Positions 32,722 to 50,442 of a stretch of 50,682 bases of DNA are shown here, piece after piece (the stretch's first letter is position 1; every line of letters starts with the position of its first letter). The notes under the pieces are model-generated. The model was not told the DNA's origin. It did no database searches and worked only from the letters and a program-made list of their open reading frames with translations. This stretch comes from a virus. The position numbers and the translations under genes were made by a program. The stretch covers positions 1 through 50,682 of IMG/VR virus record IMGVR_UViG_3300044846_004303. One strand, given 5' to 3'.

Positions 32722-32942
32722 TAAACAGTAATTTGAATTATTGTTTTATCTTCTTTCTTTATTATTTTGTAATTTTTTAAAAAACGATTGTCTAGTGAAA
32801 GACAATATTTTTTCAAATCAATAATTGTTTTATCCTTATCTTCACCTCTGATGACTCCAGTAATTGTTTGAGGTGCAAAATCAATTCCAATATTGTGCCA
32901 TTCGTCACCGATTATTTCGGGTAATATTATTTCGTATTCCAT
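32721..32942 (-). CDS. small hypothetical protein
   Basis: 73 aa, a compact alternating beta/alpha sequence (YEIILPEIIGDEWHNIGIDF; YKIIKKEDKTIIQITV). Overlaps by one base at both ends (TAATG) with thymidylate synthase upstream and the nucleotidyltransferase downstream. Not recognised. Confidence 0.75.
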   Translation of the reverse strand: MEYEIILPEIIGDEWHNIGIDFAPQTITGVIRGEDKDKTIIDLKKYCLSLDNRFLKNYKIIKKEDKTIIQITV

Positions 32943-34213
32943 TAGTTTGATAAGGGAGCTTTAATCGGTGGATGAGATTTATAATTTAATAATTCAAAAC
33001 AATCAGGTCTTAATGCTAATATTTTTTCATTAAAAGTCTTTTCACCTAAATGTTCTTTAACTTTTTCATGTTGATACCATTCTCTATGAGTTATTTTAAC
33101 TGACGGTAAAGGATAGGGTTCTCTTGTTCTGATTGGGATTTCTTTATCATCCATCATATCTAGCCCATTAATTTTACCATATGAGTTTCCACCATCTTCT
33201 TCCCACGTCTTTTCATTTCCAGTGTATATTGCATATCTTTCATCAAAAGTTAGTTTTTTCCCAATCTGTTCTTTTGCTTGCTCAATGTGGTTTGAATATA
33301 GATGGACATCACCTAAATTTCCAATTAGCTCGTCAGGTAACATTCCAACTTCTTTTGCAATAATTTCTAATAATAGTCCGTAAGAAGCTATGTTAAACGG
33401 TAATCCTAAAAAAGTATCTACAGAACGTTGGTTCCACATTAAAGAAATTCCTCTCTTTGGTGTTGGGGTATAATATGGGTTATCAAAATCAGGTAAATTC
33501 TTTGGGTCAAAGAACCTTTCCATACCTGTTTCGTAGTTGTTATTAAACCAAATATTATATCTTCTTAAGTCACTTAATTCGGTTGTATAAACTTGAAATC
33601 CATAATGACAAGGTGGTAAAACCATTTGGTTTAACTCCCCTACATTCCAAGCATTAACCATCAATCGTCTTGAGTCTGGATTTATTTTAAGGTCGTTGAT
33701 AAGGTTTTGGATTTGGTCAATATACATTGAACCCGCCTCATATAGGGTTTGATTATCTTCAGTTTTTAATGTGGTTTCAATTCCTTTACCAACTCTCCAA
33801 CTTCTCCATTGTGAACCATAAATTGGACCGAGTTCACCCCATTTGTTACTAAACTCTTTTTCATGTTTAATTTTTAAAATGAAGGTGTCCTTTGTATTTG
33901 GTTGGGCGTATGGATTTTCTTTGGTAAATTCTGTAACGTATCTTTTATATGCGTCTCCATCCCAAATATGACAATCGTAATCTAATAGGAATTTGATATT
34001 CGTATCACCTCTTAAAAACCATAATAGTTCTGTTACTACTGAATTCCAGTGCATTTTTTTAGTAGTCAGTAACGGAAACCCTTCATTCATGTTATGGCGT
34101 ATTTGACGACCAAATACTGAAATTGTACCAGTACCTGTTCTATCTTTTTTCTCCACTCCATTATCAAGAATGTCTTGAAGTAACTCTGTGTATTGTTTAT
34201 CTATATTGTTCAT
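32942..34213 (-). CDS. thyA: thymidylate synthase (ThyA), enlarged
   Basis: 423 aa against about 264 for E. coli ThyA. The ATG at 34213 makes an ATGA overlap with the previous gene and is preferred to 34237. Signatures: DRTGTGTISVFG (Arg25), TTKKMHWNSVVTELLWFLRGDTN, catalytic Cys202 in LPPCHYGFQVY, SRRLMVNAWN, QRSVDTFLGLPFNIASYGLLL, GDVHLYSNHIEQ. It methylates dUMP to dTMP. Extra length comes from inserts at about 140-160, 210-260 and a charged segment at about 330-375. The active site looks complete. Supports phage DNA synthesis. Confidence 0.95.
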   Translation of the reverse strand: MNNIDKQYTELLQDILDNGVEKKDRTGTGTISVFGRQIRHNMNEGFPLLTTKKMHWNSVVTELLWFLRGDTNIKFLLDYDCHIWDGDAYKRYVTEFTKENPYAQPNTKDTFILKIKHEKEFSNKWGELGPIYGSQWRSWRVGKGIETTLKTEDNQTLYEAGSMYIDQIQNLINDLKINPDSRRLMVNAWNVGELNQMVLPPCHYGFQVYTTELSDLRRYNIWFNNNYETGMERFFDPKNLPDFDNPYYTPTPKRGISLMWNQRSVDTFLGLPFNIASYGLLLEIIAKEVGMLPDELIGNLGDVHLYSNHIEQAKEQIGKKLTFDERYAIYTGNEKTWEEDGGNSYGKINGLDMMDDKEIPIRTREPYPLPSVKITHREWYQHEKVKEHLGEKTFNEKILALRPDCFELLNYKSHPPIKAPLSN

Positions 34214-34455
34214 ATTAATCCTCCTTCTTTTTTCCAATCTTCTTCCATATGATTTCTTGACGAGTTATAGTTTCCATAATCACCCCAATAATCCAATAAA
34301 GATTCAAAAGCTAATTTAAGTTTATTGTATTTTTCTTCTGATTCGTTTAATCCTAAGATATAAGAATCCATCATTGCATCAACAATGGATTCTTTATCTG
34401 AGAATGAAGTATGTACGATTTTTGATTCGTAGATTTCGTCTATTTTATTTTTCAT
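34210..34455 (-). CDS. small acidic hypothetical protein
   Basis: 81 aa, helical (DKESIVDAMMDSYILGLNES; YNKLKLAFESLLDYWGDYG). Linked by ATGA overlaps to the ligase gene upstream (34452-34455) and thyA downstream (34210-34213). Unrecognised. Confidence 0.75.
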   Translation of the reverse strand: MKNKIDEIYESKIVHTSFSDKESIVDAMMDSYILGLNESEEKYNKLKLAFESLLDYWGDYGNYNSSRNHMEEDWKKEGGLI

Positions 34456-35540
34456 GGCTCAATTTCTTTTTGCCAAAATGGTTTTGAATATTTTGGTTTA
34501 ACTAATTTCCAAATAATATCGTCAACTTTTTCGTTGTTATGGTCCCACATCGCAAACATAATTGCGTGTAAAACTTCTTGTTGTTTCATAACAAATTCTG
34601 CAAATTCTTTTTTTGATGGTTCAGGGTCTACATCACCATATTTTCCATAACGGAATCCATCGTGAAGTTTTCCTGCTCTCTCCCTCAATTGAAAACATCC
34701 GTATTTTAAATCTCGAATTGTGGTTTTAACCCACTTATCAAATTCATCAGGAACCCTATCAAGTAATTCATCAATATTTTTTTCGTCTTTAAGATATTCC
34801 CATATGTCCACATTTGAAAATCCAGTTAAGATTCTGTGAAGACGAACGTATTCTTCTCCTTTGATTTTCATTCTGAATCCATTCTTAAAACGAATTACAT
34901 ATCCTTCTCTGTTACCGTTAATCTTATCTTTAAGGGTATCATAATCTGTGATACCATCGTATTTCTTAATGGTTGGAAATCCACTTACTTCGTTGATTGA
35001 CAACATAGAATCGTAGTCCAATTCTTTACCATTTGCGTTACTCACCATAGACAGTACAACCAATTCTTCATCAACACCGTAATCGCAAACAATACGATTT
35101 TCAGGGTAAATAATTTCAACAACGGTAGTATATCCTTTTGGTAATACTTCTACGTTGTATTTTTTATTTAAAATATCTCTACCCTTAATTGATTGGTCTG
35201 AAGTAAACGAACCTTTACTTGCTAATATCCATTTGCCTTGATACCAAAATAAAATACCTAAAGAACCATCCAATTTTTCAAATACCTCAAAAGATTCTTC
35301 AGGTATATCATTTAAAGTTAATTCTTCGTAGTTAAAAAACTTATTGAACGCTTTGGCAATAACATTACCTTCTCTATCCAAGATAAGACCTCGGCACATT
35401 TTGGTAATATCATCCCACTTATTCTCATACTGACAAGTACGAGAATAATTCCAAATAGACAATGGAAGGGTTGGGTGGTCATTTTTAACCACCAAACCCT
35501 TCTCAAGGTATTCGTTCAATATGTTTATATCTAAGTTCAA
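34452..35540 (-). CDS. RNA ligase, T4 Rnl1-like
   Basis: 362 aa, close to the 374 of T4 Rnl1. Nucleotidyltransferase motifs in order: MCRGLILDREGNVIAKAFNK with KFFNYEE; motif I EKLDGSLGIL with adenylated Lys89; GYTTVVEIIYPENRIV; motif IV EGYVIRF; motif V FRMKIKGEEY. The KFFNYEE block before motif I is characteristic of Rnl1-type ligases. It joins 3'-OH and 5'-phosphate RNA ends using ATP, e.g. to repair cleaved tRNAs. The kinase at 36012 could prepare the ends. Operon with thyA. Confidence 0.9.
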   Translation of the reverse strand: MNLDINILNEYLEKGLVVKNDHPTLPLSIWNYSRTCQYENKWDDITKMCRGLILDREGNVIAKAFNKFFNYEELTLNDIPEESFEVFEKLDGSLGILFWYQGKWILASKGSFTSDQSIKGRDILNKKYNVEVLPKGYTTVVEIIYPENRIVCDYGVDEELVVLSMVSNANGKELDYDSMLSINEVSGFPTIKKYDGITDYDTLKDKINGNREGYVIRFKNGFRMKIKGEEYVRLHRILTGFSNVDIWEYLKDEKNIDELLDRVPDEFDKWVKTTIRDLKYGCFQLRERAGKLHDGFRYGKYGDVDPEPSKKEFAEFVMKQQEVLHAIMFAMWDHNNEKVDDIIWKLVKPKYSKPFWQKEIEP

Positions 35541-49323: not shown

Positions 49324-49408
49324 ACCGAGGTGGTGTAATGGTAGCCACGAGGGACTTAAAATCCCTTGGTCAGTAACGGCCGTGAGGGTTCGAGTCCCTC
49401 CCTTGGTA
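49324..49408 (+). tRNA. tRNA-Leu(UAA)
   Basis: 85 nt, class II. Acceptor ACCGAGG / CCTTGGT, anticodon arm GGGA-CTTAAAA-TCCC (TAA), long variable arm, discriminator A. Confidence 0.93.
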
Positions 49409-49616
49409 CAATGAGTTAGAAGTACTCATCAAGTTTGGTAACGTTCTTTAAAGATGTTATGGTTGTTTCCTACCACGGCCTTAAGAGGGGGTCTCGGAGA
49501 ATGGTCGTAACAACATCACCGAGTATGTTTGACGTTTTAAGCGGTAAGACGCGTTGGGTTTTTCAAGAAGAAAAACTGTGAATATCTACTCACTGGGATT
49601 TCAGGTGGGGAAATTT
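49409..49616 (+). other. 208-nt structured spacer between tRNAs
   Basis: No ORF of note. It contains several hairpins: ATGAGT/ACTCAT at 49411, GATGTTATGG pairing loosely with a later GTAACAACATC, and GTTTTTC/GAAAAAC near 49557. No intact tRNA can be folded. Could hold a small RNA or processing signals. Confidence 0.4.
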
Positions 49617-49690
49617 GGTTCCATAGCTCAACTGGACAGAGCACAATCCTTCTAAGATTGGGGTTTCAGGTTCGAGTCCTGATGGAATCA
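49617..49690 (+). tRNA. tRNA-Arg(UCU)
   Basis: 74 nt. Acceptor GGTTCCA / TGGAATC, anticodon arm CAATC-CTTCTAA-GATTG (TCT), discriminator A. Confidence 0.93.
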
Positions 49691-49789
49691 CAATGTCATA
49701 TCTTCAGGTACCCTCACAGCGGTGAGATGGGCTAAGTTAGATACAATTTCTCGGTGCTGGAAGTAGAATGCCTGTCTGATGTGATATAT

Positions 49790-49870
49790 ACCCCGATGGT
49801 GGAATGGTAGACACGTATGTTTTAGGAACATATGACTTAAGTCATGTCGGTTCGAGTCCGACTTGGGGTA
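49790..49870 (+). tRNA. tRNA-Leu(UAG)
   Basis: 81 nt, class II. Acceptor ACCCCGA / TTGGGGT, anticodon arm TATGT-TTTAGGA-ACATA (TAG), discriminator A. Confidence 0.93.
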
Positions 49871-49900
49871 CAATATTTATAAAAAAAGATATAATAGATT

Positions 49901-49929
49901 TTGTAAACCAAAATATTTTTGTATCTTTG
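49901..49929 (+). promoter_or_regulatory. host-type promoter of a small RNA
   Basis: TTG (49901-49903), 18 nt, TATCTTTG (49922-49929): close to the Bacteroidetes TTG-N19-TAnnTTTG consensus. Confidence 0.7.
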
Positions 49930-49933
49930 TATT

Positions 49934-50022
49934 GTGATTGAGGAGCACGATTTAGATACACAAGCTCGATTACAAACTGGGTAACACGGGAACGATTTAG
50001 ATACTAGTGTTACCCTTTTTTA
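49934..50022 (+). ncRNA. small RNA with two hairpins presenting the same 13-nt loop sequence
   Basis: Bounded by the promoter at 49901-49929 and its own terminator. Hairpin 1: GAGC/GCTC (49943-49946 / 49964-49967). Hairpin 2: GGGTAACAC/GTGTTACCC (49979-49987 / 50007-50015) followed by TTTTTT. Both loops contain ACGATTTAGATAC (49947-49959 and 49992-50004). Such repetition is typical of decoy RNAs for a protein or of antisense seed loops. A 16-codon ORF from GTG 49934, exactly 4 nt after the -7 box, also fits, so a leader peptide plus attenuator-like hairpin is an alternative. Confidence 0.65.
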
Positions 50023-50442
50023 TTAGATGTCAGAATAAATAACCAATTGATTTTTACCAACTCTAAAAGGGTTAAACCTTGATTCTCTGAATACGGTTTT
50101 GATGATTAGTTGCCAATAAGTTCCTCCTATATGAACAGGAGTTATCGCCATTGCCAATTCCCACTTTAAAGATTTTACAACAAAATCTTCTTCAGGCACA
50201 ATTTCTCTTGTTACTATTTTTTCGGATATTTGTTTTGTCACCGTACTGATAATCTCTCTGATTTCCTCATTTACAATCGGCCTTATGTTATATCCTTCAA
50301 TATCATCTCTAGTATCTCTATCGAACGCATGACTGGTTCTATTCACATCAAATACAAATAAAACTTCTAAAGATGCGTTAACTTGAGTTATTCTTTTCTC
50401 AACTAATAAATTTTCCTTAATAATTTGTCTCAATGTTTTCAT
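50023..50442 (-). CDS. tagged protein, unknown function
   Basis: 139 aa. Tag-like N-terminus KTLRQIIKENLLVEKR (L-V-E), here with Lys rather than Gln after Glu. The remainder is alpha/beta (ASLEVLFVFDVNRTSHAFDR; ELAMAITPVHIGGTYWQLII). A TATTTATG box ends 5 nt before the ATG (50448-50455). Unrecognised. Confidence 0.7.
   Translation of the reverse strand: MKTLRQIIKENLLVEKRITQVNASLEVLFVFDVNRTSHAFDRDTRDDIEGYNIRPIVNEEIREIISTVTKQISEKIVTREIVPEEDFVVKSLKWELAMAITPVHIGGTYWQLIIKTVFRESRFNPFRVGKNQLVIYSDI

Follow-up and report, generated by a model that had tools for sequence, protein, structure and literature searches.

The window, which is the whole 50,682-base virus record analysed here (IMG/VR IMGVR_UViG_3300044846_004303), contains a short element that presents one 13-nt sequence in two loops, and the question is what such an RNA would act on. 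The sequence-only reading had proposed a decoy or antisense RNA against a host regulator, with a leader peptide as the alternative. The reading preferred here, at a probability of roughly 0.4, is a multivalent binding-site RNA that would sequester or regulate an RNA-binding protein of the phage. The likeliest such protein is the RelE/RegB-like one encoded by the convergent neighbouring gene.

The 13-mer ACGATTTAGATAC occurred as two exact copies on the forward strand (Table 1), and a third exact copy was absent from the whole window on both strands. When up to two mismatches were allowed, seven matches were found in the window against 1.85 expected, and none of 100 shuffles reached seven. The element folded into two hairpins with ACGATTTAGATAC in both loops (−26.4 kcal/mol, z −2.66), and the stems of these hairpins were unrelated in sequence to each other. 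The pair of hairpins with an identical loop in about 90 nt, seen earlier in the letters, was confirmed by the exact copies and the fold. The promoter proposed ahead of the RNA was also present; by the Bacteroidota promoter consensus it was of the Bacteroidota type, and not of the E. coli sigma-70 type. Hairpin 2 and the six T residues after it formed the probable terminator. From these signals, the transcribed RNA would extend from about 49930–49936 to about 50021. Between the tRNA-Leu and tRNA-Arg genes upstream, a 207-nt non-coding stretch (49410–49616) contained a boxA-like GTTCTTTAA at 49443 and had no Rfam match. The window also encoded a T4-type RNA ligase (34452–35540, minus strand) and a thymidylate synthase (32942–34237, minus strand) by PHROGs, a T4-like repertoire with RNA repair.

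Table 1. Features of the hairpin RNA and its surroundings in the window.
Feature	Position	Strand	Details
Promoter, Bacteroidota type	49899–49929	+	TTTG 49900–49903, 18-nt spacer, TATCTTTG 49922–49929
Hairpin 1	49932–49975	+	Stem 49932–49942/49965–49975, 11 bp including G-U pairs; model match 31.9 bits
Loop motif copy 1, ACGATTTAGATAC	49947–49959	+	12 of 13 positions fixed among relatives
Hairpin 2, doubling as terminator stem	49979–50015	+	Stem 49979–49987/50007–50015, 9 perfect bp; model match 31.5 bits
Loop motif copy 2, ACGATTTAGATAC	49992–50004	+	Exact match
Six-T run, probable intrinsic terminator end	50016–50021	+	Read from the sequence, directly after hairpin 2
Convergent gene, 139-aa protein P0001, candidate partner	50023–50442	−	Predicted RelE/RegB-like fold
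tRNA-Leu(taa), tRNA-Arg(tct), tRNA-Leu(tag)	49324–49871	+	Immediately upstream of the RNA; part of the tRNA cluster of the window

A two-copy pattern matched 7 IMG/VR contigs, and a slightly looser one matched 32. Since the same arrangement was built on different stems in these 32 contigs, the two-loop element is not a chance structure. A single-hairpin pattern also matched 32 IMG/VR contigs, overlapping with the two-copy set, and a further hairpin pattern matched 118, of which 80 loci were examined. The array of locus L003 led to the 634-kb huge phage LR745206.1. Among the isolated phages of INPHARED, neither the window element nor 25 kb of the window had a convincing match. In Rfam 15, no family other than tRNAs reached its gathering cut-off in the window, weak matches at 49880–50060 being far below it, and the relatives L001–L007 gave nothing at the hairpins at the E-value setting. 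The motif, searched in six spellings, was absent from the literature searched, and the element was not described in that on phage or Flavobacterium hairpin RNAs, RNA inhibitors of RegB, GOLLD, or conserved phage RNA loops. The element belongs to a widespread phage RNA family, undescribed in the Rfam models or the literature searched. It recurred in two settings, a short multi-hairpin RNA beside a gene for a protein of about 139 aa (class I) and a single hairpin at tRNA arrays or GOLLD RNAs (class II). The analysis defines a family with a 12-position invariant loop in about 100 metagenomic phage contigs and the huge phage, together with a candidate protein partner.

For covariation, 53 hairpins were aligned from 60 distinct 40-nt ones, and seven near-duplicates were left out. 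With a 7-bp stem adjoining the loop, the paired cells made up 74.9%, compared with 49.2% after shuffling, and pairing fell to 33–56% when the partner columns were slid by 1–3 positions. Changes on both sides of the stem were found in 142 cells against 59.7 in the shuffles, and all seven pairs showed double changes. The stems evolve with pairing kept and the loop stays fixed, so that the related phages bore out the proposed hairpin RNA with strong covariation. The loop consensus of the 53 hairpins was ACGATTNAGATAC, mostly preceded by GGNA and followed by AA. In a set of 76 distinct hairpins, in which the search pattern imposed the other 12 motif positions, base 7 was C in 36, T in 33, and A in 7. 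G was the commonest base at the fourth and third positions before the motif (56 and 58 of 76, respectively), A stood directly before it in 63, and the two bases after it were A in 68 and 72 hairpins. Because the 12 positions were fixed by the search, the loci selected by the protein are the fair test of conservation. The 39 distinct loci chosen by protein alone held 67 exact motif copies and one copy with one mismatch; four strings with three mismatches in that set were taken as unrelated to the motif.

The gene anatomy was compared in 57 distinct loci, which carried two motif copies in 39 cases, one in 13, three in 4, and four in 1. In 51 of the 57 loci, compared with 6.6% of shuffles, the first motif was preceded at a distance of 15–75 nt by the promoter element TAnnTTTG; in 35 of those 51 the distance was exactly 25 nt. 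A run of at least four T residues followed within 47 nt of the last motif in 46 loci. One subgroup (L055, L056, L058, L069, L109, L143, and L164) carried a second recurrent hairpin, with CGAAA in its loop, ahead of the motif hairpins or between them. In L116–L118, a longer, apparently structured non-coding RNA without an Rfam match was located 5′ of a single motif hairpin.

A GTG open reading frame of 16 codons was present in the window RNA and its nearest relatives, and a leader peptide or other small coding unit had been considered on its account. The spacings between motif copies modulo 3 were 0, 1, and 2 in 28, 12, and 10 of 50 cases, respectively, many of the 28 in-frame cases being near relatives, and the motif is therefore not a coding repeat. 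With 22 of 50 spacings off multiples of three, stops and shifts in other groups, and covarying stems, this explanation is refuted for practical purposes; the related phages kept the loops rather than the reading frame, which was not the conserved part.

Among 33 representative loci, 19 had a relative of the 139-aa protein encoded 3′ of the RNA on the opposite strand; these included tRNA-cluster loci as well as loci next to head genes (major head protein and protease). Counted from the hairpin side, the gene was adjacent in 19 of 52 distinct loci and the other 33 were not convergent with it; about six of these 33 were judged to be chance coding matches with weak stems and no promoter. A search by protein only showed that 101 of 191 pattern stretches encoded relatives, and 79 loci were analysed. 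The exact motif was convergent with the gene within 450 nt in 76 of these 79 protein-selected loci, and in 36 of the 39 with distinct downstream sequence. The protein-selected loci comprised 400,177 bases with 142 motif copies, every one of which was at the gene-adjacent site. The linkage of motif and gene held over about 50% protein divergence, and because of it the neighbour protein is the first candidate for the binding partner, which is probably conserved between these phages. In the three exceptions (L125, L127, and L130), the gene was kept, and the place of the motif RNA was taken by another RNA that, judged by eye, was apparently structured and had a similar promoter ahead of it. L024, which is closely related to the window, kept the RNA, but by eye no more than a few terminal codons of the gene were left, and no protein relative was found in its 85-kb contig; RNA and gene can therefore part.

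In the window, the RNA and the 139-aa gene were convergent and a few nucleotides apart, and the stop codon of the gene began at the second base after the T run. This geometry could suit a type I-like antisense RNA, in which the neighbour mRNA would read into the RNA gene, its 3′ UTR would be complementary to the RNA, and the loops would start the pairing. The sRNA strand had no A-run just before hairpin 2 to end an opposite transcript, and the arrangement is like that given for txpA/ratA and bsrG/SR4 in PMC4147584. However, antisense pairing needs no loop that is fixed across phages, whereas here 12 positions were fixed while the stems diverged, and the class II hairpins were not opposite the 139-aa gene. 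An antisense RNA of this type is quite improbable.

Sequence searches of the protein against Pfam, PHROGs, PADLOC, and the PDB gave weak and inconsistent matches, and no family fitted. A match to Cas11a (E 0.0014 in 3 of 17 sequences) was taken as chance. AlphaFold models from 17 and 32 sequences had pLDDT values of 80 and 77, respectively. When the first model was searched against the PDB with Foldseek, T4 RegB was the top row with a weak E of 0.14. In the VIA structure comparison of two models, a transpeptidase was placed first (Z 4.9–5.2), and RelE, HigB2, RegB, ParE, and BrnT recurred at Z 3–5, which is below the level that the tool calls reliable. The Z of 3.9 for RegB came from alignments of 97 residues at rmsd 4.7 and of 89 residues at rmsd 4.3. 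Viral structure models matched better, with E down to 1.6e-5, and a viral model named 'site-specific RNA endonuclease' matched at E 7e-5 and 1.3e-4. Tenacibaculum phage PTm1 supplied the viral protein closest in fold, A0A5S9BZ39, although neither the hairpin nor a sequence relative of the 139-aa protein was found in that phage with the models used here.

The comparison by hhalign with a profile of seven RegB sequences was not significant (probability 0.6–0.7%, E 0.11 and 0.079). In both of these non-significant alignments, His38 of the family was aligned on His48 of RegB, and His38 was the one invariant histidine in family alignments A2 and A5. The catalytic residues of RegB are two histidines, 48 and 68, and the enzyme cuts in GGAG/U aided by S1, according to a T4 review (PMC3014915). 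The pI of the family ranged from 5.5 to 9.5 and was often near neutral, so that the proteins were not uniformly basic. Because of the weak structure matches together with the RegB comparison, the fold is described as possibly RelE/RegB-like, the predicted resemblance being weak, and the protein would accordingly be a putative nuclease.

The class II hairpins were single hairpins before or inside tRNA arrays or GOLLD RNAs (L054, L079, L188, L186, L062, and others). LR745206.1 had three hairpins, which either accompanied tRNAs and a GOLLD RNA or preceded a coding gene, and its protein gene was about 72 kb away. The 195-kb contig G760 contained two hairpins upstream of GOLLD and two beside the protein gene, and contigs G773 and G774 contained both hairpin classes plus the gene. 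In L062, L186, and L188, family hairpins were located upstream of GOLLD within about 1 kb. Of one set of 50 loci, 21 contained tRNAs, and 17 of these 21 were from the group to which the window belongs; of another set of 21 loci, 8 contained tRNAs. The GOLLD RNAs scored 287–328 bits (L062, 4099–4492; L186, 1054–1462; L188, 2876–3281), with Bacteroidota-type promoters in the records. In L186 (G760, 108422 and 108683), near-identical hairpin leaders about 260 nt apart were located 5′ of GOLLD, with a boxA-like site close after each. The tRNA cluster of T4 (NC_000866, 70908–71171; L197) also contains stable RNAs, rnaC and rnaD, in which the half-motifs ACGATT and AGATAC were absent on the strand read.

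Downstream sites were named boxA-like by the motif GTTCTTT[GA]A. In class lists chosen by hand, such a site followed within 300 nt of the hairpin in 13 of 24 class II loci, compared with 0.6% of shuffles, and in none of 21 class I loci. The single hairpins that head tRNA arrays and GOLLD RNAs, and the boxA-like sites after them, favour a general recognition or stability element, which would serve 5′-end protection or boxB/nut/put-like antitermination. Another factor, of host or phage, would bind the hairpin, the multi-hairpin RNA would titrate that factor, and the neighbour gene would be a syntenic passenger. This is the main rival because class II phages without a detected gene exist: no protein relative was detected in the hairpin-bearing contigs G765, G766, and G767 (187, 176, and 152 kb), which may be incomplete, and G764 (385 kb) had a weak protein match only (E 0.0016), without a hairpin nearby. 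The RNA of L024 without its gene points the same way. However, the lack of boxA-like sites in class I argues against a general element, as do the 76 of 79 loci with linked motif and gene and a second promoter that, by eye, apparently separated hairpin and boxA in several class II loci. We consider the general element somewhat unlikely.

The proposal of a decoy RNA against a host regulator held in part. The decoy type agrees with the kept loop, the covarying stems, and the one to four copies, whereas a host regulator as target was not supported, the linkage being to a phage gene and strong matches to the hairpin in about 390 Bacteroidota genomes being confined to one contig. The pattern RGGNNACGATTYAGATACNA was found in 3 of 395 Bacteroidia genomes, namely G021 and two that read as coding sequence. 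The covariance model, run over 395 Bacteroidota genomes, gave a strong match confined to one contig (G021) and then a weak tail. Matches of E 0.01 or better occurred in 64 of the 395 genomes, more than the stated E-values predict, and the excess was taken as rough calibration, AT-richness, and codon bias. Eleven loci from among the best of these matches (L084–L094; the open reading frame was checked for L084) look like coding chance matches with ENDLDT-type codons. Because of this tail, the absence from hosts refers to strong matches. Five stretches matched in the genome_contigs set, of which two, both in Bacteroidota MAGs (L038 and L039), appear to belong to the family. Three were rejected as tandem repeats; these came from Haladaptatus, an acidobacterium, and an Oscillospiraceae MAG. 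In L038, a Flavo-1 RNA (RF01705, 341–419) shared the MAG contig with a motif pair that lacked the usual promoter.

RNAs that present a seed typically expose an identical loop in several copies, and the loop could on this ground be a trans-acting antisense seed against a host or phage RNA. However, in 20 whole phage records the exact motif, with any base at position 7, was found at the RNA locus only (2–4 copies each), and one-mismatch matches were scattered. In 15 tests against four host 16S rRNAs and one weak 6S-like match, the loop never paired well enough to rank in the top 5% of its shuffles, the lowest fraction being 0.10. In 99 Bacteroidia genomes, the 13-mer had 33 matches outside G021 against 19 for a reversed control, a modest and scattered excess. 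Antisense action through the loop, as the sequence-only reading had offered, is therefore not borne out by these searches and is very unlikely.

The loop could also mimic the 790 loop (helix 24) of 16S rRNA, GATTAGATAC, with one inserted base, and bind a ribosome-directed factor. GATTAGATAC was found in three of four host 16S loci, and 2.5% of shuffled 13-mers matched one 16S equally well with one deletion. RegB is discussed in the review literature as acting with ribosomes. However, the resemblance was picked after the fact, an inserted base would distort the loop, and the other invariant flanks had no counterpart, which leaves such mimicry remote. Mimicry of the tRNA-Leu anticodon loop (UUYAG) or of CRISPR repeats and an SD-like GGAGG were dropped, as the fixed block was longer and nothing spoke for them.

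The most likely explanation for a fixed loop on changing stems, repeated on a short RNA that ends in a terminator, is a protein-binding site in a titrating RNA. For the preferred binding-site RNA, host RNA polymerase would start the transcript at the Bacteroidota promoter, and hairpin 2 would end it after about 90 nt. A (GGNA)-ACGAUUYAGAUAC-AA loop on every hairpin would be offered to one RNA-binding protein. By the logic of CsrB or ToxI, an RNA with several such loops would then titrate this protein or inhibit it. The RNA would then be an inhibitor or a regulator of the convergent RelE/RegB-like protein. The class II hairpins point to tRNA and GOLLD transcripts as further targets of this partner, on which it may work in cis in processing, stabilising, or antitermination.

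A more specific form, unlikely as it stands, is a two-part switch of lytic Bacteroidota phages. An endoribonuclease of RelE/RegB fold would read the loop on tRNA and GOLLD transcripts made by the phage itself, and the convergent multi-hairpin RNA would capture the enzyme in an antitoxin-like manner. In the literature searched, no phage nuclease of RegB type was described with an antitoxin-like RNA as its partner. In the T4 review (PMC3014915), an anti-RegB partner is only a possibility, and T4 RIII, a protein, blocks S1-dependent RegB activation according to PMC9409239. The family makes testable an old question, raised in the T4 literature as no more than a possibility, of whether dedicated partners exist for phage nucleases of RegB type. 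It also offers a way into the control of phage tRNA arrays and GOLLD RNAs.

Among known systems, the Csr logic combines a titrating RNA with repeated loops and single sites in other transcripts. The family shares with CsrB/CsrC one short RNA that shows one loop several times, and single sites elsewhere. In CsrB/C, each loop has a GGA core, whereas here the loop is the fixed ACGATTYAGATAC in phages of Bacteroidota; of 76 distinct hairpins, 60 had GGA and 18 had GGAG close to the motif, and the base after GG varied. No CsrB match was found via Rfam in the window or the relatives L001–L007. Like GOLLD (RF02032), the family is a phage RNA near tRNA arrays, but its hairpin is about 40 nt and lies outside the Rfam match, whereas GOLLD is an ornate RNA often of more than 800 nt according to PMC12286853. 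The 139-aa protein shares with T4 RegB a weak fold resemblance, and the sequence similarity was below what would identify a homologue.

The RNA gene is convergent with a protein gene, with a possible 3′ overlap, as in the RatA and SR4 type I antitoxins. In PMC4147584, txpA/ratA and bsrG/SR4 overlap convergently at their 3′ ends, and most toxins of Gram-positive type I systems have a transmembrane domain; here, the protein is of 139 aa and the loop is conserved between phages. With ToxI/ToxN, the family shares repeated RNA units by a gene of possible endoribonuclease fold, although the fold is predicted here. ToxI consists of 5.5 direct 36-nt repeats followed by toxN, as outlined in PMC4147584. 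In the phage family, by contrast, the RNA is convergent and downstream of the gene rather than upstream in one operon, the loop alone repeats while the stems vary, and the predicted fold is RelE-like.
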